Source of the DNA: Trichomonas vaginalis G3
Lineage: Eukaryota; Parabasalia; Trichomonadida; Trichomonadidae
Length of the DNA: 64,000 nt
Assembly: GCF_026262505.1 (NCBI RefSeq)
Contig: NC_067204.1
Span: 4,001,797 to 4,065,796 of the forward strand
Reading direction: 5' to 3'
Shown: one piece after another, positions 29,410-62,173 of the stretch
Position numbering within the stretch: the first letter of the stretch is position 1
Layout: the number at the start of each line of letters is the position of its first letter
Notes under the pieces: model-generated
Databases searched by the model: none
What the model was told of the DNA's origin: nothing
The model's input: the letters and a program-made list of their open reading frames with translations, nothing else
Program-made: the position numbers and the translations under genes

Positions 29410-31467
29410 ATGATTAAACAACAGCAACCACAGCAACTTAAGGCACAAAGCACCCAGGTCCCTCAGACCATTACATACGCCATATATGCATATAATTCAA
29501 AGACGGCAGAACAAACGCAAAGGTTGAAATATGGAGATTTGGAGATAGTATTGAAAAATGACCATTTCGAATTCGTTTGCAAGGGTGGTGCAGTGATATC
29601 AAATATAAAAGAAATTTTATTTATGAATTCAAAAATTAAAGGTATAACAGATGATATAACATCAATTCCACCAGAAGAACAGAGATATTACGCATTAAAT
29701 GCATTTCCTAAAGTTTTGAAGATTGGAAGATTTAATTTAAATGAGGAATTCATAGAAGGTTTCCTAAACGACATAATGAAGAAGGCAGATAAGGAATATG
29801 TTGCTGCTGTGTTAGAGAAGAAAGCAGATAAGGAATATGTTAACGAAAAAGATAATGAAATTAAAGAAAGGGTTGAATGGTATCATGAATGGACATCAAA
29901 GATTTTAAAAACTAAAGCCGATACAGGATGGGTTTCAGGATGTTTAGACCTTAAAGCGGATAAAACTTATGTTAACGATGAGTTAGAGAAGAAGGCAGAT
30001 AAGGAATATGTTGCTGCTGTGTTAGAGAAGAAAGCAGATAAGGAATATGTTAACGAAAAAGATAATGAAATTAAAGAAAGGGTTGAATGGTATCATGAAT
30101 GGACATCAAAGATTTTAAAAACTAAAGCCGATACAGGATGGGTTTCAGGATGTTTAGACCTTAAAGCGGATAAAACTTATGTTAACGATGAGTTAGAGAA
30201 GAAGGCAGATAAGGAATATGTTGCTGCTGTGTTAGAGAAGAAAGCAGATAAGGAATATGTTAACGAAAAAGATAATGAAATTAAAGAAAGGGTTGAATGG
30301 TATCATGAATGGACATCAAAGATTTTAAAAACTAAAGCCGATACAGGATGGGTTTCAGGATGTTTAGACCTTAAAGCGGATAAAACTTATGTTAACGATG
30401 AGTTAGAGAAGAAGGCAGATAAGGAATATGTTAACGAAATATACCAAAGTTTGATAGGAACAACGAAAAATATTGAAACTATTGTTGGTGACTTTTCTAT
30501 CTATGAAGAAAACAAATATTTTAGATGGGAGTTTGTACACTCCTTAAAAAATGGTATACGGTATAAACTCATTCCGAAAAATAACAATGAAATGTATGTA
30601 GGCTATATAAAGAATAATGGTACACAAGTTAAAGTTCCATTAGACAACAACTGTTACTTAAACTTATATGGAGACGAACAAAAGAAATATTTAAGAGTTT
30701 ATGAAATGGCAGATATGACATTGCCTGACCCAGCTCCAGCACCATATTATTATGACTATGGAGATGATGTCAGAACACCACATGTAGATGAACAAAAGCT
30801 AACATTATATTTAGATTATTATAGATATAAAAGATATAATGCAATAGAAAAAACGAGAATAGTATATTATTATACAGATGACAGAAATAAATATTATAGT
30901 CAAGATTTTACCTACCCTGAAAACATAAGATTATATTATAAAAAATATTCTGACACAAACCAGAAGAAACCAGAAATAGTTGCACTATATTTTAAGTTCA
31001 AAAGAGACAATCCTATAATATCGCATATGTTTAATTTAATGAACCCAGTAGGTTCTATTTATACATCAATGGATGCAAGAGGTCCTCAAGTAATGTTTGG
31101 TGTTGGTGCATGGGAACAAATAGTTGACAGGTTTTTGTATTGTGCAAACTCTTCAAAGGAAACAGGAGGTTCGAAGAAAATTACTGAAGCAAACCTTCCA
31201 CCGCACACTCATACGGGAACTACAAACACAACAGGTAATCATTCACATTCAATAACAAAAAGAGGTTATAGAAATCTTGCAGCAGGTTCGGATAGACAGG
31301 GAATGGATAGATATGATATTTCAAGTGACCCAGTAGATTCAAACGCAGGTATTTTCTGTGGAACCACAGGAAATCATTCACACACTTTCACAACAAATCC
31401 AACAGGCTCGGGTAAAGATTACATGCCACCATTTGTGACTGTATTCGCATGGTACCGCATTTATTGA
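29410..31467 (+). CDS. Long fibre protein with phage-like collar/HxH tip
   Basis: 685 residues, intact. Residues about 125-345 are a repeated shaft: KADKEYVAAVLEKKADKEYV plus a WYHEWTSKILKTKAD segment, in three 70-residue copies. Such KADKxYV strings are typical of trimeric phage tail-fibre coiled-coil/beta shafts. The last ~140 residues have the phage collar or gp10 C-terminal pattern NPVGSIYTSMDARGP, GVGAWEQIVDRFL and GGSKKITEANLPPHTHTG, then two GNHSH motifs (HxH metal sites in fibre tips), ending PPFVTVFAWYRIY. It is probably a receptor-binding or attachment fibre on the Maverick particle. The start has TTTATTTTTAAATCATAATAAATG context. A 28-bp double hairpin (29442-29469) encodes part of its N-terminus. 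Confidence 0.8.
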   Translation: MIKQQQPQQLKAQSTQVPQTITYAIYAYNSKTAEQTQRLKYGDLEIVLKNDHFEFVCKGGAVISNIKEILFMNSKIKGITDDITSIPPEEQRYYALNAFPKVLKIGRFNLNEEFIEGFLNDIMKKADKEYVAAVLEKKADKEYVNEKDNEIKERVEWYHEWTSKILKTKADTGWVSGCLDLKADKTYVNDELEKKADKEYVAAVLEKKADKEYVNEKDNEIKERVEWYHEWTSKILKTKADTGWVSGCLDLKADKTYVNDELEKKADKEYVAAVLEKKADKEYVNEKDNEIKERVEWYHEWTSKILKTKADTGWVSGCLDLKADKTYVNDELEKKADKEYVNEIYQSLIGTTKNIETIVGDFSIYEENKYFRWEFVHSLKNGIRYKLIPKNNNEMYVGYIKNNGTQVKVPLDNNCYLNLYGDEQKKYLRVYEMADMTLPDPAPAPYYYDYGDDVRTPHVDEQKLTLYLDYYRYKRYNAIEKTRIVYYYTDDRNKYYSQDFTYPENIRLYYKKYSDTNQKKPEIVALYFKFKRDNPIISHMFNLMNPVGSIYTSMDARGPQVMFGVGAWEQIVDRFLYCANSSKETGGSKKITEANLPPHTHTGTTNTTGNHSHSITKRGYRNLAAGSDRQGMDRYDISSDPVDSNAGIFCGTTGNHSHTFTTNPTGSGKDYMPPFVTVFAWYRIY
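29442..29469 (+). repeat. Double-hairpin mini-element in the fibre gene (degenerate)
   Basis: 13+2+13 layout: GGCACAAAGCACC, CA, GGTCCCTCAGACC. The second half is nearly the same as in the integrase gene (37543-37570) though the genes are unrelated. Confidence 0.6.
29780..30409 (+). repeat. 210-bp direct repeat, three copies, in the fibre gene
   Basis: Three 210-bp units appear identical at DNA level by eye, followed by a partial fourth. They encode the fibre shaft, and copy number may vary. Confidence 0.93.
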
Positions 31468-31477
31468 ATGTGCTTGA

Positions 31478-31514
31478 GCCTACTTTGCAGGCTTACCGCG
31501 TTCATTGAATGAAC
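31478..31514. terminator. Double hairpin directly after the fibre gene
   Basis: GCCTACTTTGCAGGC (31478-31492, one mismatch) and GTTCATTGAATGAAC (31500-31514, perfect) lie 10 bp after the stop codon. They may be a 3'-end signal or a mini-element insertion. Confidence 0.35.
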
Positions 31515-31609
31515 TAAATATATTTTATGTTTGTAATTAATTAGGTAATGAAGTAATGAATGAACTGCAGAAATAAATGTTTACGTTAATGTTTACAGGT
31601 TATTCAATA

Positions 31610-32056
31610 ATGAATTATTTTTGAAGAACTGAAGGTGCTACCATGTTACCATGTGCTACCAGGTCATTTAACTTCTTTTAAAAAATGAGACAACATGACA
31701 TTTAGACAACAACACAGGAGGAAGGCAGTTATGAATTATTTTTGAAGAACTGAAGGTGCTACCATGTTACCATGTTGACGACATGACATTTAGACAACAA
31801 CACAGGAGGAAGGCAGTTATGAATTATTTTTGAAGAACTGAAGGTGCTACCATGTTACCATGTGCTACCAGGTCATTTAACTTCTTTTAAAAAATGAGAC
31901 AACATGACATTTAGACAACAACACAGGAGGAAGGCAGTTATGAATTATTTTTGAAGAACTGAAGGTGCTACCATGTTACCATGTGCTACCAGGTCATTTA
32001 ACTTCTTTTAAAAAATGAGACAACATGACATTTAGACAACAACACAGGAGGAAGGC
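31610..32056 (+). repeat. ~120-bp repeat array, plus orientation, four copies
   Basis: GAAGAACTGAAGGTGCTACC recurs at about 31623, 31743, 31837 and 31957, each unit ending ACAACACAGGAGGAAGGCA. The second unit is a short form lacking the central ~40 bp. The array is mirrored by 35405-35895. Confidence 0.92.
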
Positions 32057-32078
32057 AAAAATAAATTCCAATCATACT

Positions 32079-34382
32079 TTATAAAGCTTCATTTACAGGT
32101 ATTTCATCGTCAGTAAATGAATCATCATTATCGTTTGGTTCAACCTGTTTATATAATCCTTTCATTTCTTTTTTCAAAACATAACACCATGTTTGTTTAC
32201 CGTCTATTCTTCTATGTTTCCTATCACATTTATCCTTAATACTCATTTGGAAATTCTTGTCTTTCATGTCTGATGGTTTGCAGAATAGAGCATTTTCACA
32301 CGTCATACCTGCACACAATTCATCATAATGTGTATTTATCCATACATCTAAAGGATTTGTTGATAATTCAATTAAATCTTGTTTGGCTTCAGTCATCGGT
32401 ATGATTCGTACATTAAATGATGAAAGGTCATATTGCATAAATACGTCAGCAAATTATCATAAAATTCCTTTGTGCATGAATCCATTAAATTCTTGAAGTA
32501 ATCAAATTGACCCTTGAATTTACCATTAACCCTTAAACTACGTATCTTCTGTCTCCAACTTCAATTTTGACAGGGTAGACGTTGTTAGTTACGAAAATGA
32601 AGTTTGCAACGTTCTGTGCTGTTCTTCTGGGTTGATTCTTTCATTAATTCTAATCTCATTATCCGTAATAATTGATTTTCAAAGCGTTGAAGTTTGCGAG
32701 TCTGTCTTCACCTACATTCTTGAGTTCATTAAGTACAAGAAACATTTTTATTTTCAACTACTGAGTTGAAATTACCCGTTAGCCACTTATTTCAGTAATG
32801 TTTTTACATGAATAACCAGCGAGAAGTTCAGAAATAATGTCTGTAAATCTGTTTTTACCTGTTCCCTGAAGTCCTTTCAAAATAATTGCTGTTTCATTCT
32901 TGATTCCAGGATGTTGAATCATTGATGCAATCCAGCCGAGAAGGTATTTATACACTTCATCGTTATTATCACAAATGGCTTCTTTAATGAAATTCATAAA
33001 CATCTCAATTTTTGAGTAATCAGGCTTTTCAAGAATGTTGTATTTATAACCCTGAAACGTTGAGAAAACATCTGGGGAATCAGATTTAAAGCAAACACCC
33101 TTAACGGTTAATGAAGACAATTGATTTTAGTAGTACATCCCATGCTGTTATTGTTTTACCTTTTCTTTAAAATAATTTAATCATTTTAAGTGACTCTTTC
33201 ATGTTTGACTGAAGAACGAATGATATTTGATTCATTTTGTCGTGTATGTTGTACTGATTGAATGATATTTGTTTCCACAATCTCGAAACGGATTACACGT
33301 GATAAATCCTCAATTACTTCAGAACTGTTTTTATACTGATGATTTTCAGCCTTGCGTCTAATATCTGTTATCAAAAACGAGTCATCAAGTTTGATATCAA
33401 ATGTTATTTTGGCTTACGTAATAAAGGCAAAACGTATTCATCATAATATTCCTTTTGATATATTTTTAGAATCTTCACTAAAAAATGGAGAAGTCATTAA
33501 ATGTGCATATCTACTACGTGCTTTTTCAAAATTACTTTTGCATTTTCTGTTAAATTGCAGAAGTTATAAACGTTATCGTATGCTTCATTAATTAAATGAT
33601 TAGGTAACGAATTAATAGCTTGAAACAGTGTGAATAATGTTATTTCTTTTTCTAAATTCATGTTTCCACCGTCATTATGTACTTCAAAATCACAGATGCC
33701 ATCAACTATGCTCTGGGCAAGTTTATCGTCAATGTTTACATCTTTGTTTTCATTCATGATAGTCTTTATTTCTTCGTTCTTCTGTTCAACTCTTACCTTA
33801 ATATTCAAATCATTTAATATATCATTCACTGTTCTGGTTAATGTTGAATCGTAACTTCCACGAATGAATGAGTATGTATTGATTGGTTCTGATGCATTCT
33901 TGCGAACTCTTGAATCAGCCATGACTATTAATGAACGCTTTGAATCATCCATTGAAGTCATTATGTCGATATCATAATCATTGCAGGAAAACATTTAATC
34001 ATTCTGTTCGAGGTTGAATAGAAGAAATTAGTGTTGCAATAAATGTGAAGACCTCCTGAAGCGGTTTTAACGATAACATCTTTATCCGAAAGTTTTGATA
34101 AAATGTCTTTTCTAACTGTTTCTTTAAGTTCATCATTGTACGATTTATTGATATCAACATCTTAATCGTTAAATTTGAAATTTTATTTACTAATAAAGCC
34201 ATACCAGTTTTCCTTCCTCTTCCTCCATCATGTTTGAGGTAGTTATGTAAATCAATCTTGTTTTCACCAATTCTTTCGTTGAGGGTTTTAGTTTCTGCCA
34301 CAACCAATTCCTCAGCTAATGAATCAATAACTTTTTCATCAGAAACGATATAGTTGCTGTTGTTGTTGTTTGTTACTGTCAT
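32079..34382 (-). pseudogene. Primase-helicase (AEP + D5/DUF5906 SF3 helicase), multiply frameshifted
   Basis: Reading leftward from ATG 34382, frames 34382-33999, 33994-33497, 33374-33186, 33120-32779 and 32438-32079 form one broken gene of about 760 codons. Near 34040-34075 another frame reads TASGGLHIYCNTNFFY, a primase-polymerase (AEP) motif. 33120-32779 contains AIILKGLQGTGKNRFTDIIS, the P-loop form GxQGTGKN typical of D5/DUF5906 helicases, preceded by YKYLLGWIASMIQHP. MFLVLNELKNVGEDRLANF near 32740 is the Walker B region. At least five single-base shifts are needed, so it is non-functional as written. It would prime and unwind element DNA. Confidence 0.8.
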
Positions 34383-34439
34383 TTATATAGGAATAAAAAA
34401 ATAAAAATAATTTTAAAACTAACTTTATTTTTGGACTGC

Positions 34440-34575
34440 ATCATATTTTCGTAAATGTTGTCTAAATGTCATGTTGTCTCATTTTTTAAAAGAAGTTAAA
34501 TGACCTGGTAGCACATGGTAACATGGTAGCACCTTCAGTTCTTCAAAAATAATTCATAACTGCCTTCCTCCTGTG
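34440..34575 (-). repeat. Single ~120-bp repeat copy, minus orientation
   Basis: Same unit as 35405-35895, located between the primase-helicase and KilA-N genes, upstream of the former. Confidence 0.9.
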
Positions 34576-34672
34576 TTGTTGACATAATGTCATGAGGTTA
34601 GAAATGAGGTTAGATCTAACCATCTACCCTAAAAATTATTTTTGGTGAATTCAATAAAAATAAATGGTTCAT

Positions 34673-35338
34673 TTACTCACAATATTTTTGTACAAAACAA
34701 CCCCAAGCTTTTAACTTCTTTTCTGCAGCTTCTAATGCTATCTTAGCGAGTTCATATTCTCTAAATTCTCTCTTTAAATTTTCTTGTTCCCATTGGTCTA
34801 GTTCGTATGGAGAATCTCTATAACCATAACATAACTCACGTTCATGTTCTAATTGTTTTTCGCACATTTTTCCAACTTCTTCTTCAAACAAAGGTTTAGC
34901 ATTCTCTACTGTATCTTCAAGTTCTTCTTCATCTAATTTCTCATGAACTTTCTTGTCTATGGAGTCCATAATATCTTTGACATAAAATGCATACTTTACA
35001 GAGCACCATTCAGCAACAAAATGAACGAGGTCAGGATGTATGTAAATACCTTTGAATTCATTTATAACACCCTTAGTAAGCTCATAAAATGCTTGTTTTG
35101 AGGTCGAGCCACTTTTGGCTCCACCGTATTCGTTCATCCAAAACTCAAGAATTCCCTGTATTTTAGCACTATTGAGAAATCTGTTTAAATGGTTTAACTT
35201 TCCTGCTTCTCTTGCCATCTTTGTTGCATTAATGTAACCATCCTTGTCTCTACGTAAGACTTCAATACTGTTATAAGTGCCTTTTGTGAATGTTTCGCCA
35301 TTAGATTTGTTAGTGAATGTTTTTGCTTCGACTGACAT
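34673..35338 (-). CDS. KilA-N domain protein
   Basis: About 221 residues from the second ATG (35338); an upstream ATG at 35356 would add six residues. The KilA-N core is clear: RRDKDGYINATKMAREAGK, LNHLNRFLNSAKIQ, then KGVINEFKGIYIHPDLVHFV and AEWCSVKYAFYVKDIMDSI. KilA-N is a DNA-binding domain of phages and large DNA viruses that also occurs in trichomonad genomes. The C-terminus is acidic and helical with an ELAKIALEAAEKKLKAWG coiled-coil stretch. It is flanked on both sides by 120-bp repeats, which could be its binding sites (inference). The gene is intact. Confidence 0.88.
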   Translation of the reverse strand: MSVEAKTFTNKSNGETFTKGTYNSIEVLRRDKDGYINATKMAREAGKLNHLNRFLNSAKIQGILEFWMNEYGGAKSGSTSKQAFYELTKGVINEFKGIYIHPDLVHFVAEWCSVKYAFYVKDIMDSIDKKVHEKLDEEELEDTVENAKPLFEEEVGKMCEKQLEHERELCYGYRDSPYELDQWEQENLKREFREYELAKIALEAAEKKLKAWGCFVQKYCE

Positions 35339-35404
35339 TTCTGTTCTTACATACAAAATAAAAAAATAAAAATAATTTTAAAACTAACTTTATTTTTGGG
35401 TCAT

Positions 35405-35895: not shown

Positions 35896-35933
35896 TTAGA
35901 ACGGCATAATTTAAATTTTTATTTTTATCATAA

Positions 35934-36096: not shown

Positions 36097-36380
36097 ATTT
36101 TGATTGAGTTTAAAAATTCATCTTTATTAAATTCATCTCTTCCAATCAATTTATTTATTCTATTAAATTCTTTTATTTTTGCTTCACTCAGTTTAAGGAT
36201 TGAACGGTAAGTTTCTAATTTTTCGATTATTTCTTCATCGTTTTCAGTTCCATTAGTTTTATGGGCATCAACCCCACCGCATTGCGGCTTCTTTTTGTAA
36301 TAGCATATTTTTGATTTAATTCTGTTTAGTTTCTTTTTATATTCATCGTCTGGACTCTTGACTGCTTCGTTGTCACTCAT
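36093..36380 (-). CDS. Unidentified 95-residue Maverick protein
   Basis: A charged, helical protein (KKKLNRIKSKICYYKKKPQ...) with no known motif. Residues about 32-44 (KKPQCGGVDAHKT) are encoded by a double-hairpin mini-element at 36263-36288 and resemble the peptide KPQSGEVVDRDKT inserted in the second polymerase copy. It starts after TTTAATTTTTTTATTTCGTAAGAAATG. It lies just upstream of the 3' end of the small plus-strand gene, convergent with it. Confidence 0.5.
   Translation of the reverse strand: MSDNEAVKSPDDEYKKKLNRIKSKICYYKKKPQCGGVDAHKTNGTENDEEIIEKLETYRSILKLSEAKIKEFNRINKLIGRDEFNKDEFLNSIKI
36263..36288 (-). repeat. Double-hairpin mini-element in the 95-aa gene
   Basis: On the minus strand: GCCGCAATGCGGT, GG, GGTTGATGCCC, then ATAAAA. 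About 20 of 26 positions match the insertion at 62080-62106. Confidence 0.7.
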
Positions 36381-36399: not shown

Positions 36400-37890
36400 T
36401 TAAATATTATTTAAATATAATGGAGTAATAAAATAAATCGGAATTTCTATTAATTTATTGTCAACTTCAACTAATACATTACCGTTAATATATCTAACAA
36501 ATTCAGCTATTGTGTCAAATCTTCGTCTTCTTTTTGTCATTGATTTATCAGTTTTTCCATAATCGAGATGAATCAAAACTTTATCCCCTTGTTTAAAATT
36601 CATGAGCCCCGAATTAATTTGTTCACGTTTAACATCATTTAACCTTTCCATTTGCTTTCTAATATATTCCCATTCTTTTGAAATATCATTTTTCATTTCC
36701 ACTGGTTTCATGTTTATAGTTCTATGCCATGTATTATTGTAATAATATACTAACTGTTGTATGATGGAGTCATGATTTCCATCCCAGTATATCTGACCGT
36801 TAACCCCTAACGCATCTCTAAGAGTTCTCATTACCGCATCAACTATTTTATTATGAAACGTATATGGAGAGGATGAGAAGAAAAAATTAATTTGTGGGAA
36901 ATAATGAGTCATAGCTGCCTGAAATCCTTTATCACCATCACCCCTGATATTATCTACTCTTTCATGATCTAGTAAGTATTGAATAGCTCTTCTTGTTTCC
37001 TGTTCTGTTTTCCCTTTCACTGGAATGCAATATAAATATCTAGTGTTAATGTTAATGGCAAATAAATAAGTAACGTTTCCTTTTGAATATTCCAGATGAT
37101 CGATTTCGTATGAATATGGATATGGAGCAAATGAAGGGCGACTAAATTTTTCCTTTAATGGTTGAATTTTTGGGTCAATTGGTTTATTTAATATCTTGAA
37201 ATCCTTTTTAAAATCTTTTTGTTTCTTTAATGTTTGAAATGGATATAATAAAGTGAATGATGAAGGATTAACTGAAGGAGGAGGCGGTACTGTCGTTGGA
37301 GGTTTTGGTGTTGCAAGTGGTTTAATTTTATCTGCTTTGATTTTGGATTTCATTCCTTCCTTCATTAATTCTGGATGTATTTTATTCATTTGTTTTAAAT
37401 ATGCTGTATATAAAGGTTTGATATACTTTCCCGCTTCGAGTTTATGTTGAAGGATGAATTCCAAAAGTTGATCTTCATTTAAAAGTCGGGCTGAATATGG
37501 TTTAACTAATGAATCATAAATTAAAGCTTGTGCATCATTTATGGTCTGAAGGACCTGGGTGTTTTGCGGCTCAGGATTATATAATTTATATAATTCATCA
37601 ATATCTTCTTCTGTTAATACTTTATTTTTGAAATCTTTCAACTGTTTAAGTTGTGATTTAGTTTTTCCCTTTGAATATTCATTATTTTTAATTTTGTCTT
37701 TAATTTCAGAAATTATTCTATCATGATATTTCAAAATTTCATTTTTATAATATGGATAATAATAATCCCTATCATCACTTGTTATATCTTCATTATATTT
37801 TTGGAGATATGATTTTAATTCATAATAACTAAGAAATTTTTGATTAAATACTAAATCATCAATTAAATTTTTTAAATCTACGTTATCCAT
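36400..37890 (-). CDS. Retrovirus-type (rve) Maverick integrase
   Basis: 496 residues, intact. The N-terminal ~190 residues are helical, followed by a Pro-rich linker (PKPPTTVPPPPSVNPSS). The catalytic core follows: PYSYEIDHLEYSKGN (first Asp), NIRGDGDKGFQAAM (second Asp) and, about 32 residues on, HNKIVDAVMRTLRDALG, where Asp stands in the place of the usual Glu. The C-terminus has an SH3/chromo-like region (GDKVLIHLDYG, RRRRFDTIAEFVRYINGNVLVEV). It joins Maverick ends to target DNA, producing the 6-bp duplication seen here. The start is after TTTATTTTTATATAAATG. A double hairpin (37543-37570) lies in the N-terminal part. Confidence 0.9.
   Translation of the reverse strand: MDNVDLKNLIDDLVFNQKFLSYYELKSYLQKYNEDITSDDRDYYYPYYKNEILKYHDRIISEIKDKIKNNEYSKGKTKSQLKQLKDFKNKVLTEEDIDELYKLYNPEPQNTQVLQTINDAQALIYDSLVKPYSARLLNEDQLLEFILQHKLEAGKYIKPLYTAYLKQMNKIHPELMKEGMKSKIKADKIKPLATPKPPTTVPPPPSVNPSSFTLLYPFQTLKKQKDFKKDFKILNKPIDPKIQPLKEKFSRPSFAPYPYSYEIDHLEYSKGNVTYLFAININTRYLYCIPVKGKTEQETRRAIQYLLDHERVDNIRGDGDKGFQAAMTHYFPQINFFFSSSPYTFHNKIVDAVMRTLRDALGVNGQIYWDGNHDSIIQQLVYYYNNTWHRTINMKPVEMKNDISKEWEYIRKQMERLNDVKREQINSGLMNFKQGDKVLIHLDYGKTDKSMTKRRRRFDTIAEFVRYINGNVLVEVDNKLIEIPIYFITPLYLNNI
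37543..37570 (-). repeat. Double-hairpin mini-element in the integrase gene
   Basis: 13+2+13 layout. On the minus strand GCCGCAAAACACC, CA, GGTCCTTCAGACC, followed by ATAAA. The first hairpin is degenerate. Confidence 0.65.
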
Positions 37891-39579
37891 TTATATAAAA
37901 ATAAAATAAATGTTTAAGGGTGCCCACCTCTTTGTCTCTTCTGTGGCATTTCATTAAATAAATGGCATACAACATCCATTTTCACAACATACAGCCTTAG
38001 TGTGTGCTCCTGTTAATGCAGTCTTACCGATTGTTAAGCGAGTCATTGACCCATTTTTAAGTTGTAAATTAATATTTTGACCATCAAATATCACTTTATC
38101 ATTTATTATATCCAAATAATTTTTAGGTGTTAATTGTTTATTTTGTCGTAAACTAACACCTTTCATTTTTTGTGCAATCTTTTTAAAATCACCTCCATCA
38201 ATTGAACCGTTGAATGATGTATAACACTTGGGGCATAAAGCAACCATGTTATCACCTTGTTTCTCAATTGCTAAACCCAATAACTTCTTCTCATGTGCTT
38301 TTTCTTCAGCTTTATTCTTTAATTTAGGTTTAAATTTCTCATCAAAACAAAGAAATCAAAAGGTGCGAATTTGAAAATGTTTTTATCATAAAATTGTTTA
38401 TCGGTTACAATTGCTTGAAATGCTTGAGTGTTAGGAAGATTTGGATCGCCAGCGATTGCCCAATAAGATGAATCAGTATCACCTTCAATGAAATGAAAAC
38501 GATTAACATCCATGCATTTATACATAAAATCATAAATGAAAACCAAATACCAGTATTTAGCATTATCTAAAGTGAAGAATGCCTCTTGTAAACATGTTTC
38601 ACATCTATAAAATCTATCTTTAAGCATCACTTGATATGTATCCTCTCCTATTTCTCTTATGTTTTTAAACTTATTTGACATACATGCAACGCGTGCCTTC
38701 TGTGCATTCATTATTTTAGTCTTTGCGTAATTTTGTGTATTCATTGCATCGTAACCATATGATCCATTAAGTGAAATCTTGCAAAATAAACTTTTTCCTT
38801 TATTTCCTTCTAATTCAGCCTTTTGTCTTTCGTTCATAAATTCATTCGCAAATTCATTAAAACAAGTGTTTTTAGTAAATGTTAAAATTGATTGAATATC
38901 ATCGATGATAAAATGAAATCTGTCGATTAGATACCAAAGATAATAAGAAGAAAATGGTTGATATTGGTTGTGTGTTGATGCTAACTGAGTTAATTTTCTC
39001 TGTTTCTGGTCAACTGGTAGATTGTTTGATTTCATGCAATTATACATAAAACTGCCAATTGTTTTTTCATCTGTGATAATATCTAAGTTTCTTATTATCG
39101 GTAAAAAGTTTATGTAATCATTAATGTATTTTTCATCAATGTGACCTTTTACTTCAGCCACGAATAAAGTATTTTTCTTTCTAATAATTCCCAGTGCTTT
39201 TGCTTTCTTTGTTGCTGTATCACAAATGATAACACCATTCAATCTTCCCGGCATATACATTTTATGGTCAGTATATTGAATGAAATCATGAGGATTAGAT
39301 GAAAATGATGAAGGATATAATGAATTAAAATCAACACCAACGAAATGAGTCATAATGTTGGTGGTGTCCTCATTTGATACAGTTTTAGTTTCTGGACTAT
39401 ATGAAAGTTTATTAATGTGCGTGATTCCTTTAAGATTTACTCTATGTTGAACATTTGATAGACCACCAGTAATTCCATTACGGAGAATGTGATAAGCTTC
39501 AACTGAATCTAAAGTCATTGGTAAATTATTTTTTAATGCATAATTTCTTAAATTGATTCTTAAACGTTGAACATCTTCA

Positions 39580-39730
39580 TCTTTATTTGATTTTACGACA
39601 TTGCAATAACAACACATTAACTGACAATTTTCTTTGGTATGTGGTTTTTCATTATCGATTCTATCCAATGTTGGTTTATTTGCATATGTAAACGCTTTAC
39701 CACACATTTTACATTTAGATGAAAGGATTA
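39580..39730 (-). other. HNH-endonuclease-like insert in the polymerase
   Basis: CKMCGKAFTY, PTLDRIDNEKPHTKENCQLM and CCYCNVVKSNKD give the C-x2-C, D-x-I-D, H-x3-N-C and C-x2-C-N layout of HNH nucleases. It lies between the exonuclease and motif A of DNA polymerase B, fully in frame. Confidence 0.7.
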
Positions 39731-40525
39731 AATCGTGATAGTATTGAAAATCATCCATTGAAACATTATTTTTAGTATCCCTTTCTGCTTTTTCATCTTG
39801 TTTCTTATATGATTCAATTTTATATTTCCAATACTTTTTCGTTAATTCAAAACTTGATTCTATCTCTTCCTCAGGATATTTTTCATTAGGATTAAAGTCT
39901 TTATATGCTAAAGCGTAACGAATCATTGAAGCATTCGATGATAAAGAAAGATTATGAAGCATGTCAATTTTATAAACAAATGTTTCTTCAATAATTTTAT
40001 CAATTGGGTCAATCATAATTTCAACATCTTTATTGCAATAATGAATAAAATATTCTAATCTATTCTTAAAGTTTTTAGCATCATTGAGATATATTTGATA
40101 ATCACTATCTGATATAGTTTCTTGGGTTAATGCTGAATAAAATGAATCTTGAGTGAATGGTTCCACTTTATATAATTCTTCTTCATAATTCTCCCATGTG
40201 ATAAATTGATAAGGGAAAAAGGATTTAACACGTGATTTATTGTTTCCGAAATCTTGAGTGAATTGGTCTAATGTCCCACCCGCTATATAATTTCTGATGT
40301 CAATAAATCTTAATTCATATGGAACGTTTGTTTTCTTTACAATGATTTGCTTAAATTGTGAAGATGAACCCAGCACTGATTTTATTTTCCATTTTGCAGT
40401 GTTTAAATCACGAAGAATTAAATTTAAATCAAACTTTCCCGAATTAAAACCTATGATATTCATTTTATTGAATTCCTCATCTAGAAGTTCTTTAAATGCT
40501 TCCTTCTGTTTTTCATTTAATGTAT

Positions 40526-40551
40526 GGGACAAAGTCCCCGCCGTTTGGTCC
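40526..40551 (-). repeat. Hairpin mini-element in the polymerase gene, next to the in-frame stop
   Basis: GGGACAAAGTCCC is a perfect hairpin; the adjoining CGCCGTTTGGTCC is a degenerate second half. It lies 18 bp from the TAA at 40569-40571, and the ATA flank is as in other copies. Confidence 0.55.
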
Positions 40552-41459
40552 GTTTGCGACTTCATTAATTATTCATATTGTTCAATATTTGATTTAGCAA
40601 CTAATGAACAGGTTGAAAATAAAAACTCAATCCAATCAGAAATAAAAGAATCACTCGAAGTTAAGCAAAAATTCCTCGTATATGTTTTATCATTTAATTT
40701 AACCGTTGATGATACCATGAATGGTTTTAAGTAAGCGTTCAAAGTTGCACATTCAGAAAGTTGAAGTTCTTCTTTAGTCTCTAATGTTTCGAAGTCAAAA
40801 GTAATATAATATCTTGTCGGTTGATAATATTCCTGCAAATTGTGAGCTAATAACCACTGATATATCTTCTGTTTCGTAATATGTGGTGCATATGGTTGCT
40901 GTGTCTTTTGCAATTGAACGTCTTGAATTAATCTTCCATTATTTTCTTTACATTTCTCACAATGCTTTAAAAATCTTCTTTGGTTTTTCCTTTCTGGATC
41001 ATCACGGATAGAATAAACTTCTTCTTTACAATATGGACAAACTTTATAGCCGGTGAGTGCTTCAACGTCTGTTATTCTGTCAGCGTGAAGTTTTCCACAT
41101 GGACTCTGTGTTAATAAAATATTTACTGTTTCAAATTCTGGATCTATCATTATTGATTCCACTAATGGAAAGTCTACCTTATTTATATCCACGTCTTCTG
41201 GTTGAGGATCACAATAATAGAAATCAATATTAACATTTAACATTCTCGCTAATCTCTCACTTTCTGATGAAATGTCAAACCCTTCATATGAATCTATTGC
41301 TTCATTTAAATAGCTTCTACGAGTTTTAGGATTAACACCATCAGGAATGTTATAGAAGCGTTTAAATAACCTTCTACCTTCTGCTCTAATTTGATTATCA
41401 TTCATTTTAGCGGTTCCGTTTTTGTTCATTTATGTAAGAATAAAAATAAAGTTTATTCT

Positions 41460-42596
41460 TTAAAGCCCATAAAATGAATTAAGAACACATAAATTTTTAT
41501 CATCCGCGACGTGACGAATACATTTTAATTTACTCAAGAATGTGTACCCTGATACATTAAATCTAATTCCTGTCTTATTTAATTTCACAACTTTGAAAAG
41601 GAATGTATGAATAGCTATAAAATGATGAGAAGATGTTTTATGGGTTGCTTCCATTTTTTCTGAAATAAATGAATAAATATAATGTTTATAAGTTTTCATA
41701 TCTTTTATGTTCTTAATAACGAATGGTATAGACCTTTCCACTTCATCTTCCTTCGGTGCTGTTCTTTCATATGAAACATTATTAGTATCTTCAATAATGA
41801 AACCACAATCACACAAAATTTTATAGGTTCCAATGGTTTCTTTTGATATTTTATCTAATAAATCAAAAACTTTATCAACACCCGTGCATTTATTTAAATA
41901 ATAATTTGTGTAAATATCATGATCTTCTTTCTTAATCGTATTAGTTGCATATGTTACATTTTTCAGTGCTTTTTTGAATTTTTCAGAATCAAGAGGAGGT
42001 GAAAGTAATATACATGGATAATTTCCATCGTCAATAAACTGAAGCTTATGTTTATGAATAAATTTTGTGCCTTCTTCTGAAAGTGTTTCGTCAATATCAC
42101 CATCTAATAAATTTTTAGTAGATTCCAAAAAGTAATTTTTATATCTTTCCTCATGTGATTTTTGAACTTCTGATTCTGAAGCTGGGATATTCATTAAACC
42201 CTCTACTTCATTCTCAGCATTTCTCAATTCACTAATTCTTTCATCTATTTCATTTCTTAATTGTTCCAATTTCTCAATCTCATCGTTATAATATTCATCT
42301 TGTTTAATTTTTTCTTCAAAATATTCAGGAGGTGTTTCAAGGCTCTCTGAGCCCAGGTCCTCTGGACCATAAAGAGGAATATTCTCCTGTTTTTCAACTT
42401 TTTTGGGATATAAATATCTCATTATAGCCTTTTTAGTAATTGGTCCGTTATATTTAAATTCATTCAACAATCTGGAAAACTCTTTCACATTCTGCATATA
42501 TGTTGGATAAGAACCGTCTCCAAAATTTTCTAAAATATTTTCTAATTCTGAATTAGTGAACTTTAAAGATTTCAATGAATTAGTTGTTATACTCAT
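41460..42596 (-). CDS. Maverick terminal-side conserved protein, 378 aa
   Basis: 378 residues, intact. Acidic with a coiled-coil centre (DEIEKLEQLRNEIDERISEL), a Cys pair (ILCDCGFII) and a basic-aromatic C-terminus. It is the first gene inside the right TIR, directly before DNA polymerase B. A nearly identical copy is at 60127-61263 in the second Maverick, showing constraint or recent spread. Known roles near Polinton ends include replication or terminal proteins, but nothing here proves it. Start context TTTTATTTTATAATAAATG. A double hairpin (42341-42368) encodes YGPEDLGSESLE. Confidence 0.7.
   Translation of the reverse strand: MSITTNSLKSLKFTNSELENILENFGDGSYPTYMQNVKEFSRLLNEFKYNGPITKKAIMRYLYPKKVEKQENIPLYGPEDLGSESLETPPEYFEEKIKQDEYYNDEIEKLEQLRNEIDERISELRNAENEVEGLMNIPASESEVQKSHEERYKNYFLESTKNLLDGDIDETLSEEGTKFIHKHKLQFIDDGNYPCILLSPPLDSEKFKKALKNVTYATNTIKKEDHDIYTNYYLNKCTGVDKVFDLLDKISKETIGTYKILCDCGFIIEDTNNVSYERTAPKEDEVERSIPFVIKNIKDMKTYKHYIYSFISEKMEATHKTSSHHFIAIHTFLFKVVKLNKTGIRFNVSGYTFLSKLKCIRHVADDKNLCVLNSFYGL
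42341..42368 (+). repeat. Perfect double-hairpin mini-element in the 378-aa gene
   Basis: GGCTCTCTGAGCC, CA, GGTCCTCTGGACC, followed by ATAAA: two perfect 5-bp stems with TCT loops. Antisense to the gene. Confidence 0.8.
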
Positions 42597-56720: not shown

Positions 56721-57305
56721 TTATTCTAAAACCTCTCTGATTTGTTGGAAGCTTTGTGGATGATGGCAAACAGGGCATTCTTTAGGAGCTTCTTTTCCTT
56801 TGAAGATATATCCACAATTTCTGCACTTCCATTCAACTTCCTTTTCGCGTTTCCAGAATGTTCCATTTTCAACTTGTTTGGCAAGTATTGCTAATCTAAC
56901 ACCATGCTGATGTTCAACTTCAGCAATAAGCTTAAATGTGTTTGCAATATCAAGAAAACCTTCCTTTTCAGCAACAGCTGCCATGTATGGATATATTTTA
57001 AGTCCTCCATTATCTTCTGCAACAGCAGCATCTTTGAGGTTCTCCAATGTTGATTTATTTTGTCTTGTTTCGATTGGAAACTGAACATTGACAATTGGAT
57101 CTGATTCCTTAAGCATCTTTAAGAAAATTTTACCATGCTCTCTTTCATTATCTGCTGTCTCTTGGAAATAATCTGCAATTTGCTCGAAACCTTCTTTTCT
57201 GGCTTTTTTAGCATATGATGAGTAACGAACATAAGTAATGTATTCTCCTGCGTATGCAGCTGCGATATTCTTCTCAGTCTGGCTTCCCTTGAATGGAATT
57301 GACAT
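56721..57305 (-). CDS. Rubrerythrin, copy 1
   Basis: 194 residues from ATG 57305-57303. The open frame continues 42 codons upstream, but the paralogue starts at the equivalent MSIPFKGSQTEKN and an initiator lies just upstream. The ferritin-like four-helix domain has di-iron ligands in AGEYITYVRY, ETADNEREHGKIF, AVAEKEGFLDIA and AEVEHQHG. The C-terminal rubredoxin domain has CRNCGYIFKG and CPVCHH. It reduces hydrogen peroxide to water in anaerobes, using electrons via the rubredoxin iron. In trichomonads it defends oxygen-sensitive metabolism. No hydrogenosomal presequence is evident at this start. It is tandem with 57918-58502. Confidence 0.93.
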   Translation of the reverse strand: MSIPFKGSQTEKNIAAAYAGEYITYVRYSSYAKKARKEGFEQIADYFQETADNEREHGKIFLKMLKESDPIVNVQFPIETRQNKSTLENLKDAAVAEDNGGLKIYPYMAAVAEKEGFLDIANTFKLIAEVEHQHGVRLAILAKQVENGTFWKREKEVEWKCRNCGYIFKGKEAPKECPVCHHPQSFQQIREVLE

Positions 57306-57917
57306 TATCTTCCACGAAAAATGAACTAAAAAAATTGAGAGCGAAATTTTCATAAATGAAAAGCATACTCTATTGTATCTAGATCTAGAATCATAAGCGA
57401 TCATGATGTTTTTGTCAATTTTTTTCCCCATTCAAATACGATCGTATTCAAGTATTCAAAATTTCTGAGTGATTATCTTTTCAATTCCTTTTGAATTTGA
57501 AGTTTTCGTTATTCAAATTATTGATTTAGATTCTTATAGTTCACCATTTTTGTCCTTATAACGCCAGTTGTTAATATTGGAAAATTCAAATTGCGAAAAT
57601 ATAAAATAAAAATCATTTTTCAAAATTGTAAATTGAAATCATCTGCAAGATTTTTAACATATTTATGGCATTATCAATTTTTTGCATTATGGGCCACACT
57701 TTTGAGCGTACCCATAATTCCTAAATCATTTAATCTATTCCATATATTGCATTTTTGTTCATACTTGCAATCCTAGCTCCAAAAAACAAAAATTCATTTT
57801 AAATATTCTTGCATACTTGCAATTTCATCAAATTCAATAAATGTTTGGGATCATTGAAGAGAGTTTTGAACTACTAAGAAAATTAAATATTTAAATTTTA
57901 AACCTAAATCAAAATAT
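57306..57917. other. Intergenic between rubrerythrin copies
   Basis: No gene is seen. It has some similarity to the region upstream of copy 2 (GTCAATTnnnnCC, TTTCTGAGTGATTATC), as expected of a tandem duplication. Confidence 0.5.
57319..57325 (-). promoter_or_regulatory. Initiator of rubrerythrin 1
   Basis: TTCATTTTTCGTG lies about 13-20 bp before the ATG and is conserved in copy 2. TCATT fits the trichomonad initiator TCA-Y-W. Confidence 0.65.
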
Positions 57918-58502
57918 TTATTCTAAAACTTCTCTGATTTGTTGGAAGCTTTGTGGATGATGGCAAACAGGGCATTCTTTAGGAGCTTCTTTTCCTTTGA
58001 AGATATATCCACAATTTCTGCACTTCCATTCAACTTCCTTTTCGCGTTTCCAGAATGTTCCATTTTCAACTTGTTTGGCAAGTGTTGCTAATCTAACACC
58101 ATGCTCATGTTCAACTTCAGCAATAAGCTTAAATGTGTTTGCAATTTCAACAAAACCTTCTTTTTCTGCAATTGCGGCCATATAAGGATATACTTTGAGG
58201 CCTGTATTTTCTTCTCCAGCAGCAGAGATCTTAAGGTTCTCTAATGTTGATTTAATTTGACATGTCTCGATTGGGAACGGAACATTAATCACAGGATCTG
58301 AATCCGTAAGCATCTTTAAAAAGATGTTGCCATGCTCTCTTTCGTTTTCTCCTGTCTCTAAGAAATAGTCTGCATTCTGTTCAAAACCTTCTTTTCTGGC
58401 TTTCTTTGCGCAAGACTGATAGCGAACATATGCAACGTATTCACCAACATATGCTGCTGCAACATTCTTCTCAGTTTGGCTTCCTTTGAATGGAATGGAC
58501 AT
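57918..58502 (-). CDS. Rubrerythrin, copy 2
   Basis: 194 residues, about 85% identical to copy 1 by eye; the C-terminal ~45 residues including the rubredoxin domain are identical. Iron ligands are kept: VGEYVAYVRY, ETGENEREHGNIF, AIAEKEGFVEIA, AEVEHEHG, CRNCGY and CPVCHH. Differences cluster in the helical domain (AKKARKEGFEQNADYF against EQIADYF). Identical C-termini with diverged middles suggest gene conversion of the 3' part. Same function as copy 1. Confidence 0.93.
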   Translation of the reverse strand: MSIPFKGSQTEKNVAAAYVGEYVAYVRYQSCAKKARKEGFEQNADYFLETGENEREHGNIFLKMLTDSDPVINVPFPIETCQIKSTLENLKISAAGEENTGLKVYPYMAAIAEKEGFVEIANTFKLIAEVEHEHGVRLATLAKQVENGTFWKREKEVEWKCRNCGYIFKGKEAPKECPVCHHPQSFQQIREVLE

Positions 58503-59902
58503 GAGCTTTCACGAAAAATGAACTAAAAATAATTCAGAGACGAATTTTTCAAACACTTGAATTCAATGAATGAGAAAATCCATAGTACTGATGAATCTAG
58601 TTGTAATATTTTAAACGATAGTGATTTTGTCAATTGCCCTAATTCAAAATGATCGAAACTATATAATTCAAAATTTCTGAGTGATTATCATTTCAAACAC
58701 CATTGAATATTATGAATATTTAGATCAAGATATCATCCAACACCTTATTCGCGAATACACTATTGTGGCTTAAAAAAAATAAAAGTGCCTCAGTAATCAA
58801 TTGAGTCAAGCCGTCATTTCTCCACAATTAAATTCCCATACTGATTAGAATTTTGTTAGAAACTGTTTTTAGATCTCTCAATTCATATCAAATTCTTACA
58901 AGCACACTCGATGAGTATTTGTGTTTCATTAATATATATATATATTAAAAATTTTTAAAAATCATTTTCAAAGTACCTGACATCCAAATCTTTATTTCTA
59001 TCCAACTTTAAAAGAGTAGAAACATTCTCTGACTGATGATAAATTGCTTTGCACAATCAAATTACATGTTTTTTAATTTTTGAAATGATAATCCATCGAT
59101 GGAGAATTTGTTTCTATTAAATCATGATTGAGATCAGAAGACTAAAAGCCAAAATAAAGATATAAACTTTCATACAATCTGCATGTGGAATGAAGGTTCT
59201 ATGAAAATCCGGAAACAAAAATTATGCCAGCATTCTCCCTGCTTGACGTGTAACGTGTGTAAACTTTTGGCTGTCAAGAAATCACATTGTCAAAAAAGTC
59301 ATCATCATTTCATATCATAGCATGATATTTCTTGTGGAAACTTAATTTTTGCAGCTTGTTGAATGTAATAACTATGTTGAAAATGTATAATGAAGATACA
59401 GTTGGGAGATGGAAGAAGTATTCAATTTTTGAATGATATTCAAATTATTATTAAAATTTTATTTGTAATGGAAATTTATTTATTCATTAGTTGGGCTGAT
59501 TATTTTTGTTTATTTCGCTTCACAAAACCGTTTTTAACGATGGAGAAAACATTTTTGCTTGGGAGGGTCTTCCATTGGTATGGAATACTAATTCATTTGC
59601 AAAATACAAACTTGAGGTCCCAGAAACAGATCGGATCTTCCCCTCTGAATGATTGGCCGCAGAAAATTCAAAACATTGTGAATATTTCCAAAATGATTTT
59701 TTTAATAGTAACACATGTTAGTCGAATTGAATGATGAAGTGTTTCTAATTGCTACTTCAGAAATAGAAAGATCTATTCCATTAGTCTGCTTTTTATTGTA
59801 TTTTTTGTACAAAAATATGTTTCATTATGAATGAAAGAGTGAAACACATAAGATTAATGAATGTCATGCTTACAATAGAACCAGCACTTAAAATAATAAG
59901 TT
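58503..59902. other. A+T-rich gap before the second Maverick
   Basis: A frame at 59390-59734 and an overlapping one contain short protein-like pieces (NDGENIFAWEGLPLVW) but no coherent gene; it may be a remnant. Nothing else is supported. Confidence 0.4.
58516..58522 (-). promoter_or_regulatory. Initiator of rubrerythrin 2
   Basis: TTCATTTTTCGTG before the ATG, as in copy 1. Confidence 0.65.
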
Positions 59903-60067
59903 AGTAGTATATGTTGACGGGTTGTGTGACTTTTTTTGTAAACGTAAGAATTCATACAATATTGAACGATTTTGTATCATTTTTTTTAACATATGAAGTA
60001 AAAAATGTATGATTCTTACGGTTTTTATTCTTACATTTTTGAATAAATCAAGATTTAAAAAATTGAC
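59903..60067 (+). repeat. TIR of the second Maverick
   Basis: Nearly identical to 22625-22790. Contains CGTAAGAAT and inverted ATTCTTACG, plus a further CTTCTTACGTAA just inside. Confidence 0.92.
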
Positions 60068-60126
60068 TTCTTACGTAAAATTAAAACTAAGTTACATTTA
60101 TTTTTTTATTTTTTATTTAATGATAA

Positions 60127-61263
60127 ATGAGTATAACAACTAATTCATTGAAATCTTTAAAGTTCACTAATTCAGAATTAGAAAATATTTTAGAAAATTT
60201 TGGAGACGGTTCTTATCCAACATATATGCAGAATGTGAAAGAGTTTTCCAGATTGTTGAATGAATTTAAATATAACGGACCAATTACTAAAAAGGCTATA
60301 ATGAGATATTTATATCCCAAAAAAGTTGAAAAACAGGAGAATATTCCTCTTTATGGTCCAGAGGACCTGGGCTCAGAGAGCCTTGAAACACCTCCTGAAT
60401 ATTTTGAAGAAAAAATTAAAGATGATGAATATTATAACGATGAGATTGAGAAATTGGAACAATTAAGAAATGAAATAGATGAAAGAATTAGTGAATTGAG
60501 AAATGCTGAGAATGAAGTAGAGGGTTTAATGAATATCCCAGCTTCAGAATCAGAAGTTCAAAAATCACATGAGGAAAGATATAAAAATTACTTTTTGGAA
60601 TCTACTAAAAATTTATTAGATGGTGATATTGACGAAACACTTTCAGAAGAAGGCATAAAATTTATTCATAAACATAAGTTACAATTTATTGACGATGGAG
60701 ATTATCCATGTATATTACTTTCACCTCCTCTTGATTCCGAAAAATTCAAAAAAGCACTGAAAAATGTAACATATGCAACAAATACGATTAAGAAAGAAGA
60801 CCATGATATTTACACAAATTATTATTTAAATAAATGTACAGGTGTTGATAAAGTTTTTGATTTGTTAGATAAAATATCAAAAGAAACAATTGGTACATAT
60901 AAAATTTTATGCGATTGTGGTTTCATTATTGAAGATACCAATAATGTTTCATATGAAAGAACAGCACCGAAGGAAGACGAAGTTGAAAGGTCTATACCAT
61001 TCGTTATTAAGAACATAAAAGATATGAAAACGTATAAGCATTATATTTATTCATTTATTTCAGAAAAAATGGAAGCAACCCATAAAACATCATCTCATCA
61101 TTTTATAGCTATTCATACATTCCTTTTCAAAGTTGTGAAATTAAATAAGACAGGAATTAGATTTAATGTATCAGAGTACGCATTCTTGAGTAAATTAAAA
61201 TGTATTCGTCACGTCGCAGATGATAAAAATTTATGTGTTCTTAATTCATTTTATGGACTTTAG
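60127..61263 (+). CDS. Maverick terminal-side conserved protein, 378 aa (copy 2)
   Basis: 378 residues, about 98% identical to the product of 42596-41460, differing at only a handful of positions (for example KQDEYY/KDDEYY, EGTKF/EGIKF, SGYTF/SEYAF). Both copies are intact, unlike the polymerase genes beside them. It shares the acidic coiled-coil centre and the ILCDCGFII Cys pair. First gene inside the TIR here too. The function is unknown; a replication or end-binding role is a guess from position. A perfect double hairpin (60355-60382) lies at the same place as in copy 1. Confidence 0.72.
   Translation: MSITTNSLKSLKFTNSELENILENFGDGSYPTYMQNVKEFSRLLNEFKYNGPITKKAIMRYLYPKKVEKQENIPLYGPEDLGSESLETPPEYFEEKIKDDEYYNDEIEKLEQLRNEIDERISELRNAENEVEGLMNIPASESEVQKSHEERYKNYFLESTKNLLDGDIDETLSEEGIKFIHKHKLQFIDDGDYPCILLSPPLDSEKFKKALKNVTYATNTIKKEDHDIYTNYYLNKCTGVDKVFDLLDKISKETIGTYKILCDCGFIIEDTNNVSYERTAPKEDEVERSIPFVIKNIKDMKTYKHYIYSFISEKMEATHKTSSHHFIAIHTFLFKVVKLNKTGIRFNVSEYAFLSKLKCIRHVADDKNLCVLNSFYGL
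60355..60382 (-). repeat. Perfect double-hairpin mini-element (copy 2 gene)
   Basis: GGTCCAGAGGACC, TG, GGCTCAGAGAGCC. Identical in layout to 42341-42368. Confidence 0.8.
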
Positions 61264-61292
61264 CCCTGGACTCTCTGAGTCTCGGACTTTAA
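61264..61292. repeat. Hairpin insertion between the 378-aa and polymerase genes
   Basis: GACTC-TCT-GAGTC (61269-61281) lies in a segment absent from the matching place of the complete Maverick. GGACTTT flanks it on both sides. Confidence 0.6.
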
Positions 61293-61342
61293 AAAAAATA
61301 AACTTTATTTTTATTTATTTTTTAATTTTTATTCTTACATAA

Positions 61343-62173
61343 ATGAACAAAAACGGAACAGCTAAAATGAATGATAATCAAATAAGAGCCGAAGGTAGAA
61401 GGTTATTTAAACGCTTCTATAACATTCCTGATGGTGTTAATCCTAAAACTCGTAGAAGTTATTTAAATGAAGCCATAGATGCATATGAAGGATTTGACAT
61501 TTCATCAGAAAGTGAGAGGTTAGCAAGAATGTTAAACGTTAATATTGATTTTTATTATTGTGACCCTCAACCAGAAGACGTAGACATTAACAAGGTAGAC
61601 TTTCCATTAGTGGAATCAATAATGATAGATCCAGAATTTGAAACAGTAAATATTTTATTAACACAGAGTCCATGTGGAAAACTTCACGCTGACAGAATTA
61701 CAGACGTTGAAGCACTCACAGGATATAAAGTTTGCCCCTTTTGCAAAGAAGAAGTATATTCTATCCGTGATGATCCAGAAAGGAAAAACCAAAGAAGATT
61801 TTTAAAACATTGTGAGAAATGTAAAGAAAATAATGGAAGATTAATTCAAGACGTTCAATTGCAAAACACACAACAACCATATGCACCACATATCACGAAA
61901 CAGAAGATATATCAATGGCTATTAGCACATAATTTGCAGGAATATTATAAACCAACAAGATATTATATTACTTTTGACTTCGAAACATTAGAGACTAAAG
62001 AAGAACTTCAACTTTCTGAATGTGCAACTTTGAACGCTTACTTAAAACCATTTATGGTATCATCAACTGTCAAAATAAAGCCGCAAAGCGGCGAGGTCGT
62101 AGACCGTGATAAAACATTTACGAGGAATTTTTGCTTAACATCAAGTGATTCGTTCATCTCTGATTGGAGTTAG
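61343..62173 (+). pseudogene. DNA polymerase B, N-terminal quarter only (copy 2)
   Basis: 276 codons, nearly identical to the N-terminal frame at 41429-40569, including the C-x2-C pairs (CPFCKEEV, CEKCKENN) and exonuclease motif YYITFDFETLETKEE. The match ends after SSDSFISDW near 62166, where a stop follows and the rest of the polymerase is missing. A 27-bp double hairpin at 62080-62106 adds nine residues (PQSGEVVDR) absent from copy 1. Truncated, so it cannot replicate DNA. Confidence 0.88.
62080..62106 (+). repeat. 27-bp double-hairpin insertion in polymerase copy 2
   Basis: GCCGCAAAGCGGC, GA, GGTCGTAGACC, G. Copy 1 reads AAATTAAATGATAAAA across the same site with no insert. Confidence 0.85.

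Follow-up and report, generated by a model that had tools for sequence, protein, structure and literature searches.

Putative mobile double-hairpin mini-elements in the Mavericks (Polintons) of Trichomonas vaginalis and their possible spread by template switching

GC-rich hairpin stretches in the Mavericks of one window

The window analysed here, a stretch of 64,000 nucleotides (contig C2:4001797-4065796), is DNA of Trichomonas vaginalis G3, and the relatives of a 378-aa protein encoded in it carry T. vaginalis G3 names. It contains at least two Mavericks (Polintons): M1, at about 22.6-42.9 kb, and a piece of a second one, M2, at about 59.9-62.2 kb, which turned out to be 91% identical to part of M1 when the window was compared with itself. 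Short GC-rich stretches that can pair into hairpins lie within genes of these Mavericks, and they are the subject of this report. Their setting is nuclear in type and not organellar, since the hairpin elements are found on contigs of tens of Mb and within Mavericks. A first-pass annotation, made from the sequence alone, had noted seven such stretches, all of which were recovered where it had placed them. The gene names it used were borne out as well, for the integrase by the names of its relatives, for the B-family polymerase by PF03175, and for the fibre-like protein of M1 by the Gp10_C domain in which, according to a Pfam search, this protein ends. The sites, designated A to F, and their principal host genes are as follows.

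62080..62106, + strand: site A, filled; 27-bp double hairpin (5-3-5, 2 nt, 4-3-4, +1) in the polymerase B N-terminal open reading frame (ORF) of M2
40677..40700, - strand: site A, empty allele in M1; insertion point between 40692 and 40693
42341..42368, + strand (378-aa gene on the other strand): site B in M1; perfect double hairpin
60355..60382, + strand: site B in M2; orthologous copy of 42341
37543..37571, - strand: site C, in the integrase; one good hairpin
29442..29469, + strand: site D, in the fibre gene; one good hairpin; core in common with site C; the L019 copy also has the stretch
36262..36288, - strand: site E, a stretch of 27 bp in the gene of the 95-aa protein; pairing good in the first hairpin and poor in the second
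40525..40560, - strand: site F, 36 bp in the polymerase; relatives with and without the insert
36400..37890, - strand: Maverick integrase, host of site C; relatives named integrase core domain
38319..40565, - strand: DNA polymerase B, main part (PF03175; relatives' names agree); host of site F
40569-41429, ORF: DNA polymerase B, N-terminal part (M1), split from the main ORF by an in-frame stop

The integrase ORF itself had no Pfam match at an E value of 0.01. Because of the in-frame stop, the polymerase copy of M1 is no longer intact.

Pairing of the stretches compared with shuffled sequence

The seven stretches had been described as one design of two adjacent hairpins followed by AT(A/T)A. 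What we found instead was several related designs, of 26-27, 29-30, and 36 bp, together with a nested 63-bp form, and the tail is not general, as 62080 is followed by GTGATAA. Perfect double hairpins are present at three of the seven, namely, 42341-42368 and its copy 60355-60382 (pairing score 27 each) and 62080-62106 (25.5), while the other four are half-paired. The score was 16 at 36263, where the first hairpin is good and the second poor, and 12.5 at 40526, which has one perfect hairpin and a disrupted half; 29442 and 37543 scored 10.5 and 4.5, respectively, the second hairpin alone pairing well in both. The core said to be common to the fibre (29442) and integrase (37543) genes stood up to scrutiny, with a best 28-nt match of 25/28, and none of 60 shuffles reached 24.

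Stems of 5 bp with at least 4 G/C and a 3-nt loop were indeed more frequent than in shuffled sequence: the window has 7, compared with a mean of 0.44 and a maximum of 3 in 50 local dinucleotide shuffles. The folding test covered four stretches: compared with 200 shuffles, 62080 gave a z of -3.2 (1 shuffle equal or better), 42341 a z of -2.1 (8 shuffles as good), and 40526 a z of -0.3 (65 shuffles as good), i.e., no folding support, and the 63-bp form of locus L034 gave a z of -2.8.

A double-hairpin pairing scan was then applied to 304 kb, comprising the window and 24 ten-kb pieces of the genome, 22 of them at random positions. Double hairpins with a score of 24 or higher numbered 12, whereas 20 shuffles yielded 4 in total. 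The window accounts for three of the 12, L010 for two, L020 for four, and L022, L028, and L034 for one each. Compared with other sizes, loops of 3 nt are in clear excess (25 against 4.7), though they are not alone in this, those of 6 nt numbering 17 against 3. Used as queries, the Maverick proteins of the window matched 2.7-6.6 kb of L019, L028, and L034, 1.0 kb of L022, 0.5 kb of L010, and 0.3 kb of L020. No double hairpin scoring 24 or more was found in the 16 pieces without such a match, of which L018 and L033 have one each at 22. L020 encodes an A32-type packaging ATPase (PF04665), for which a comparison with phage records gave no match, and tail-fibre repeats, and L022 encodes an integrase core, so that both look like other Maverick lineages; L010, which has both an integrase core and an ORF for a VapE-like helicase, may represent another type of large element.

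Gain of a 27-bp double hairpin at two polymerase sites

At site A, M1 lacks exactly the 27 bp that are present in M2. The insert lies between the AA and the T of one codon, without target duplication, and adds the nine residues PQSGEVVDR. A genome pattern allowing 0-30 extra bp gave 374 matches (reversed control, 0); among the matches listed (100 of 374), 54 alleles were empty and 46 had exactly 27 bp, with no other length. In at least three filled copies (C1:12067933, C1:25988273, and C2:10253491), the flanking bases are identical to those of empty ones. The nine residues are absent from all 13 relatives compared, i.e., the T. vaginalis cluster representatives P0012-P0017 and the diverged P0018-P0024 (47-65% identical), and since relatives and outgroups are without insert A, it is a gain.

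The site F insert is absent from P0013, P0018, and P0021, while twelve extra residues are found in P0012, P0015, and P0016 and nine in P0017; as the outgroups P0018 and P0021 lack it, insert F, too, is a gain. At the DNA level, the site F alleles among the matches listed (100 of 244) comprised 46 empty, 34 of 27 bp, 16 of 6 bp, two of 26 bp, and one each of 9 and 24 bp. Since the site A and F patterns are blind to inserts longer than 30 bp (the 36- and 63-bp alleles) and the matches listed are a part of the total, these allele shares are not genome-wide frequencies. The combinations of A and F alleles vary: among the matches listed, F was empty in 22 of the 24 rows with the 27-bp A allele that also had an F row, and the 27-bp F allele occurred in 6 of 10 such rows with A empty, 66 of the 100 site A rows having no F row. 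The 27-bp kind (5-3-5, 2 nt, 4-3-4, 1 nt) was thus gained at two places in the polymerase, between AA and T and with no visible target duplication.

Further inserts inside and outside genes

The pattern of presence and absence extends to loci other than the polymerase. L056 carries a 26-bp double hairpin, again between AA and T, that is absent from L068 (one copy each), and no long ORF runs across it in 351 bases; related hairpins also occur in L010 and L028 in stretches without long ORFs. The site B stretch is absent from the relatives P0004, P0005, and P0007, and P0002 is five residues shorter within it; this evidence is weaker, because the surrounding linker differs too. Two further features of the window belong here.

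between 27809 and 27810, + strand: empty allele of a 30-bp double-hairpin insert of L019, in the gene at 27708-28178
61260..61291, + strand: block of hairpins at the 3' end of the 378-aa gene; other copies have a shorter block or none (none at 41452-41471, - strand)

For the L019 insert, another alignment places a 44-base gap at this position, because the neighbouring linker also varies. The block at 61260-61291 is polymorphic without being a clean single insertion and may have arisen by tandem slippage.

Three side observations concern the host genes of these sites. P0007, which is 70% identical to the 378-aa protein of the window, has ten extra residues, LSPQGSLNHD, resembling the element-coded SLSPEGLSD; judged from this likeness, the stretch may be a similar insert in a Maverick of another trichomonad. 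The fibre gene contains direct repeats (window 29778-30432; 445 bases at 100% identity, offset by 210 bases). The N-terminal linker of the integrase (window 37390-37630; relatives P0025-P0061) is highly variable in length within one species and has KPKE/QKQ and PPTTVP-like units.

A constant 36-bp double hairpin nested in the loops of the 27-bp kind

A third allele of site A, 63 bp long, was found in L034: the outer stem GCCGC/GCGGC is kept, and two extra hairpins replace the AAA loop. The same allele is present in 17 further copies retrieved, one of them two bases shorter, and an insert of 63 bp is also present at site F in seven retrieved copies. Its 36-bp core, GGACTCTTTGAGTCC-TGAA-GGTCTTTCAGACC, has 215 exact occurrences in the genome (reversed-pattern control, 0). 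All 37 exact copies examined out of the 215, which were retrieved mostly in list order from C1-C3 with those already recognised omitted, lie in the loop of the first hairpin of a 27-bp element. They occupy 36 loci and represent six sites, with 18 copies at site A, 8 at site F, 4 of the L039 type, 4 of the L052 type, 2 at L020:7924, and 1 at L020:3350. The core is preceded by CGC(A/T)AA or a near variant and followed by AAGCG, or by AAACGG at site F. In L065 the 3' arm has been lost, and both arms of L040 show small deletions.

While the core is identical over 32 bases at the six sites, the outer stems vary with the host element and yet are paired at most sites (GCCGC/GCGGC, GTCGC/GCGAC, ACCGC/GCGGT); the stems of the second hairpin are GGTC/GACC, GGGC/GCCC, GACC/GGTC, and GGAC/GTCC. 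At each of the six sites, the first hairpin of a 27-bp element thus holds a constant 36-bp double hairpin in its 3-nt loop, and the result is a cloverleaf-like form of 63 bp. This constancy bears on whether the hairpins were made de novo at each place, by local template-switch mutation (quasi-palindrome correction), and never copied from one place to another. Such events make short perfect hairpins, and the stems do differ between sites; the identity of the core, however, refutes this origin for the 36-bp kind, GCCGC..GCGGC recurs, and the inserts are GC-rich amid A+T-rich DNA, so that we hold independent origins to be quite improbable overall.

The site L020:3350 bears on the direction of change. 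It is filled in two of 82 element rows, the other 80 having the 7924 stem; L020 carries the full element there, and L077 carries a core one base shorter. In six other retrieved copies of the site (rows 2-7 among the matches listed, 40 of 995 candidates), the host hairpin loop was uninterrupted in every case, one copy having a changed stem base. As candidate copies number in the hundreds and filled rows just two, we read this as the gain of 36 bp by an already existing hairpin. Both filled copies have a 7924 element 4.6 kb away, the arrangement that a local donor would lead one to expect. Recurrent spacings were also seen between the L039 type and site A (7.5-7.7 kb; C2:8492619/8500158 and C2:24059824/24067489) and between 7924 and the L052 type (4.1 kb; C1:20237994/20242108 and C3:23092023/23096118), and these sites therefore appear to share the same Mavericks.

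The 6-, 9-, and 36-bp alleles look shortened, their ends fitting deletion between short repeats inside the hairpins. The 36 bp of the window at site F may, judging from their letters, represent a 27-bp double hairpin plus the 36-bp element, minus 27 bp between two GAC repeats. No exact match to 22 bases of the core was found in the bacterial and archaeal genomes searched, nor was there a match of 21 of its bases, or of the 378-aa family alignment in a profile search, to viral contigs; Rfam returned one match on L034:9000-9400, below its gathering score.

Reading frame of the gene-borne inserts

The first base of the element falls on the third codon position at sites A, C, D, E, F, 7924, and 3350 (worked by hand), and similar peptides result. 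In-frame read-through had been claimed for all copies; it is true of the seven noted stretches, while elsewhere in the genome there are copies that no long ORF covers or in which the reading frame meets a stop. Among the matches listed for site F, allele length is divisible by three in 98 of 100. L040 and L077 also depart from the frame, by one or two bases, and all these departures are possibly assembly errors. Almost every gene-borne insert has a length divisible by three, whereas the non-genic L056 insert has 26 bp, and selection for frame therefore acts, or once acted, on the genes. The inserts would accordingly be translated as short linkers whose frame is kept by selection; in the polymerase gene, this amounts to the addition of nine- and twelve-residue stretches with the frame intact.

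Very short introns are a known feature of T. vaginalis, and inserts of this size might be introns that are removed from the mRNA. They start with GCCGC/GTCGC and end with CC(A/G), however, without GT...AG borders, and their lengths keep the frame, which introns do not need; mini-introns were rejected on these grounds, and we give them next to no credence. PARCEL repeats were also considered and rejected, being tandem and 75 nt long, and Trichomonas is absent from the main text of the paper on them.

How the elements may spread

The best explanation of the data as a whole, which we consider probable though far from certain, is that mobile double-hairpin mini-elements in T. vaginalis Mavericks are spread by template switching. 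The two parts of this proposal differ in strength: that the hairpins are inserted mobile elements is very likely, while template switching as the way they move has, in our estimate, slightly less than an even chance. What was observed is that the elements, of about 27-36 bp and GC-rich, lie in Maverick genes, mostly in frame, and in each other's loops. The Maverick DNA polymerase would stall at a hairpin in single-stranded replication intermediates, and the nascent end would switch to another hairpin with a few common bases (CGCAA before and AAGCG after), copy the 36 bp, and then return; the 27-bp kind may spread in the same way with weaker microhomology (AA/T). Templated copying of this sort would explain the constant short flanks, the location within hairpins, and the deletions between short repeats.

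A number of findings weigh against this proposal. The comparison of copies with and without the insert, which was positive at 62080 and 40526, gave no empty allele at 36263 (0 of 100 among the matches listed, of 116) or at 37543 (24 matches); the second hairpin of site E is not conserved, and the site C stretch is partly alignable in P0051, a 64%-identical relative. With their poor pairing in addition, sites C and E are placed in the family by resemblance alone and were dropped as proven inserts. These same features fit the idea that the stretches are ordinary conserved or chance coding sequence that happens to pair. Coding sequence cannot, however, account for the exact 27-bp presence and absence at A and F, for cores that are the same in genes of different kinds, or for copies that lie in no long ORF; at A, F, 3350, and L056 the idea is refuted already, and for the elements at large we regard it as very improbable.

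Further reservations concern the direction and the mode of change. The remnant alleles at site F show that elements are lost, and some empty alleles may therefore be losses; for the 36-bp element, gain and loss are indistinguishable at most single sites, 3350 excepted. The 37 core copies are not a random sample, and one pair of the L052 outer stem is broken (GACGC/GCGGC). The differences among 27-bp elements at different sites are large and mostly compensatory, which means that the members are old or were made with matched arms; by their letters, they appear too unlike one another for simple recent copies. Mobility is inferred from the alleles. Shared flanks, finally, would also be expected from a target-specific enzyme.

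Such an enzyme is the substance of the remaining alternative, in which the elements are non-autonomous transposons moved by a trans-acting, hairpin-recognising recombinase, as bacterial repetitive extragenic palindromic (REP) sequences are moved by RAYT, with the 27-bp kind entering AA^T and the 36-bp kind entering CGCNAAGCG. The boundaries are clean, the target bases recur, and target duplication is absent or very short. The 36-bp sequence is constant and has imperfect 7-bp inverted repeats at its ends (CGGACTC...CAGACCG) and a possible AA duplication, neither of which was seen in the 27-bp kind. Yet a search for Y1/HUH transposases (PF01797), the only family searched, gave no match in the T. 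vaginalis genome, the control being positive in 5 of 14 genomes, and the 36-bp target consists of the element's own shared flanks, for which templated copying accounts without an enzyme. We consider a recombinase unlikely, albeit a serious candidate.

If the elements do move by template switching, one may picture a three-layer parasitism, in which mini-elements too small to encode a product of their own spread in the virus-like transposon of a parasite by way of the transposon's own replication, one kind targeting the loops of another and cloverleaf-like forms growing stepwise in essential genes with the frame kept. This picture is speculative, and we offer it with some doubt.

Comparison with known hairpin elements

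Miniature mobile elements of this kind are known chiefly from mitochondria and from some bacteria. Allomyces mitochondria carry double-hairpin elements (DHEs), and the first-pass annotation had pointed to the likeness with such fungal elements. This holds for the structure, the GC contrast, the presence in unrelated genes, the insertion polymorphism, and the nesting, with 36263 and 37543 included by resemblance only; pairs of neighbouring GC-rich hairpins within A+T-rich surroundings were found at three of the seven noted stretches and at further loci. Like fungal DHEs and GC clusters, the T. vaginalis elements are short GC-rich paired hairpins in A+T-rich DNA, with presence and absence at homologous sites, remnants, and mergers of two elements. 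For the yeast mitochondrial GC42 cluster, presence and absence, remnants, cluster merger, and putative AG target duplications are described in PMC4478555, which also calls the way in which mitochondrial GC clusters move still poorly understood. Such target duplications were not seen for the 27-bp kind of T. vaginalis. The T. vaginalis elements further differ from the fungal ones in residing in nuclear virus-like transposons, many of them in genes and in frame, and in the placement of a constant element in the loop of another.

Rickettsia palindromic elements are about 100-150 bp long. In-frame palindromic coding inserts in unrelated genes, which the T. vaginalis elements resemble, are described for Rickettsia and Wolbachia, and such inserts also for Methanocaldococcus, in PMC2996958; those of Rickettsia and Wolbachia are bacterial and longer, whereas the elements studied here have 27, 36, or 63 bp and two hairpins, belong to a eukaryote, and occur also outside long ORFs. 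Placozoan mitochondria have GGVBCC-N3-GGVBCC hairpin repeats inserted in genes, similar in their GC-rich stems and 3-nt loops but single hairpins with 6-bp stems in mitochondrial DNA (PMC7813641). Bacterial REP sequences are likewise short palindromes (20-40 bp) in many copies, according to PMC3733652. They differ in being extragenic by name and having a tagged end, and no Y1 transposase (PF01797) was found in T. vaginalis. In the open-access literature, with most subscription papers outside the search, we found no account of such elements in Mavericks or trichomonads.

In T. vaginalis, hundreds of near-identical Mavericks with and without the same insert coexist in one nuclear genome, together with nested forms and remnants, so that origin, target choice, donor, and loss are directly testable by counting. 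A hairpin in the loop of another is, moreover, a concrete route from simple hairpins to branched, cloverleaf-like structures.

Other features of the window

M1 also encodes a KilA-N domain protein (PF04383; window 34673-35356) with relatives in L010 and L019. At window 1845-2663 there is a 272-aa ORF that by eye is like a Dam-type adenine methyltransferase, although it had no Pfam match at an E value of 0.01; it is repeated in L013, L024, and L028, with a partial copy at L028:653-760. A second dispersed, nested GC-rich hairpin, GGGGCTAGAAGGCACGAAGTGCCTGGAAGCCCC, is present at window 2792-2861 and at L013:6965, L014:4591, L021:307, L024:8806, and L028:1119 and 3345. It mostly adjoins a T run and in the window, L013, L024, and L028 lies near copies of the 272-aa ORF, and its stem and loop letters differ between copies (GGCAC GAA GTGCC, GGGGC GCA GCCCC).

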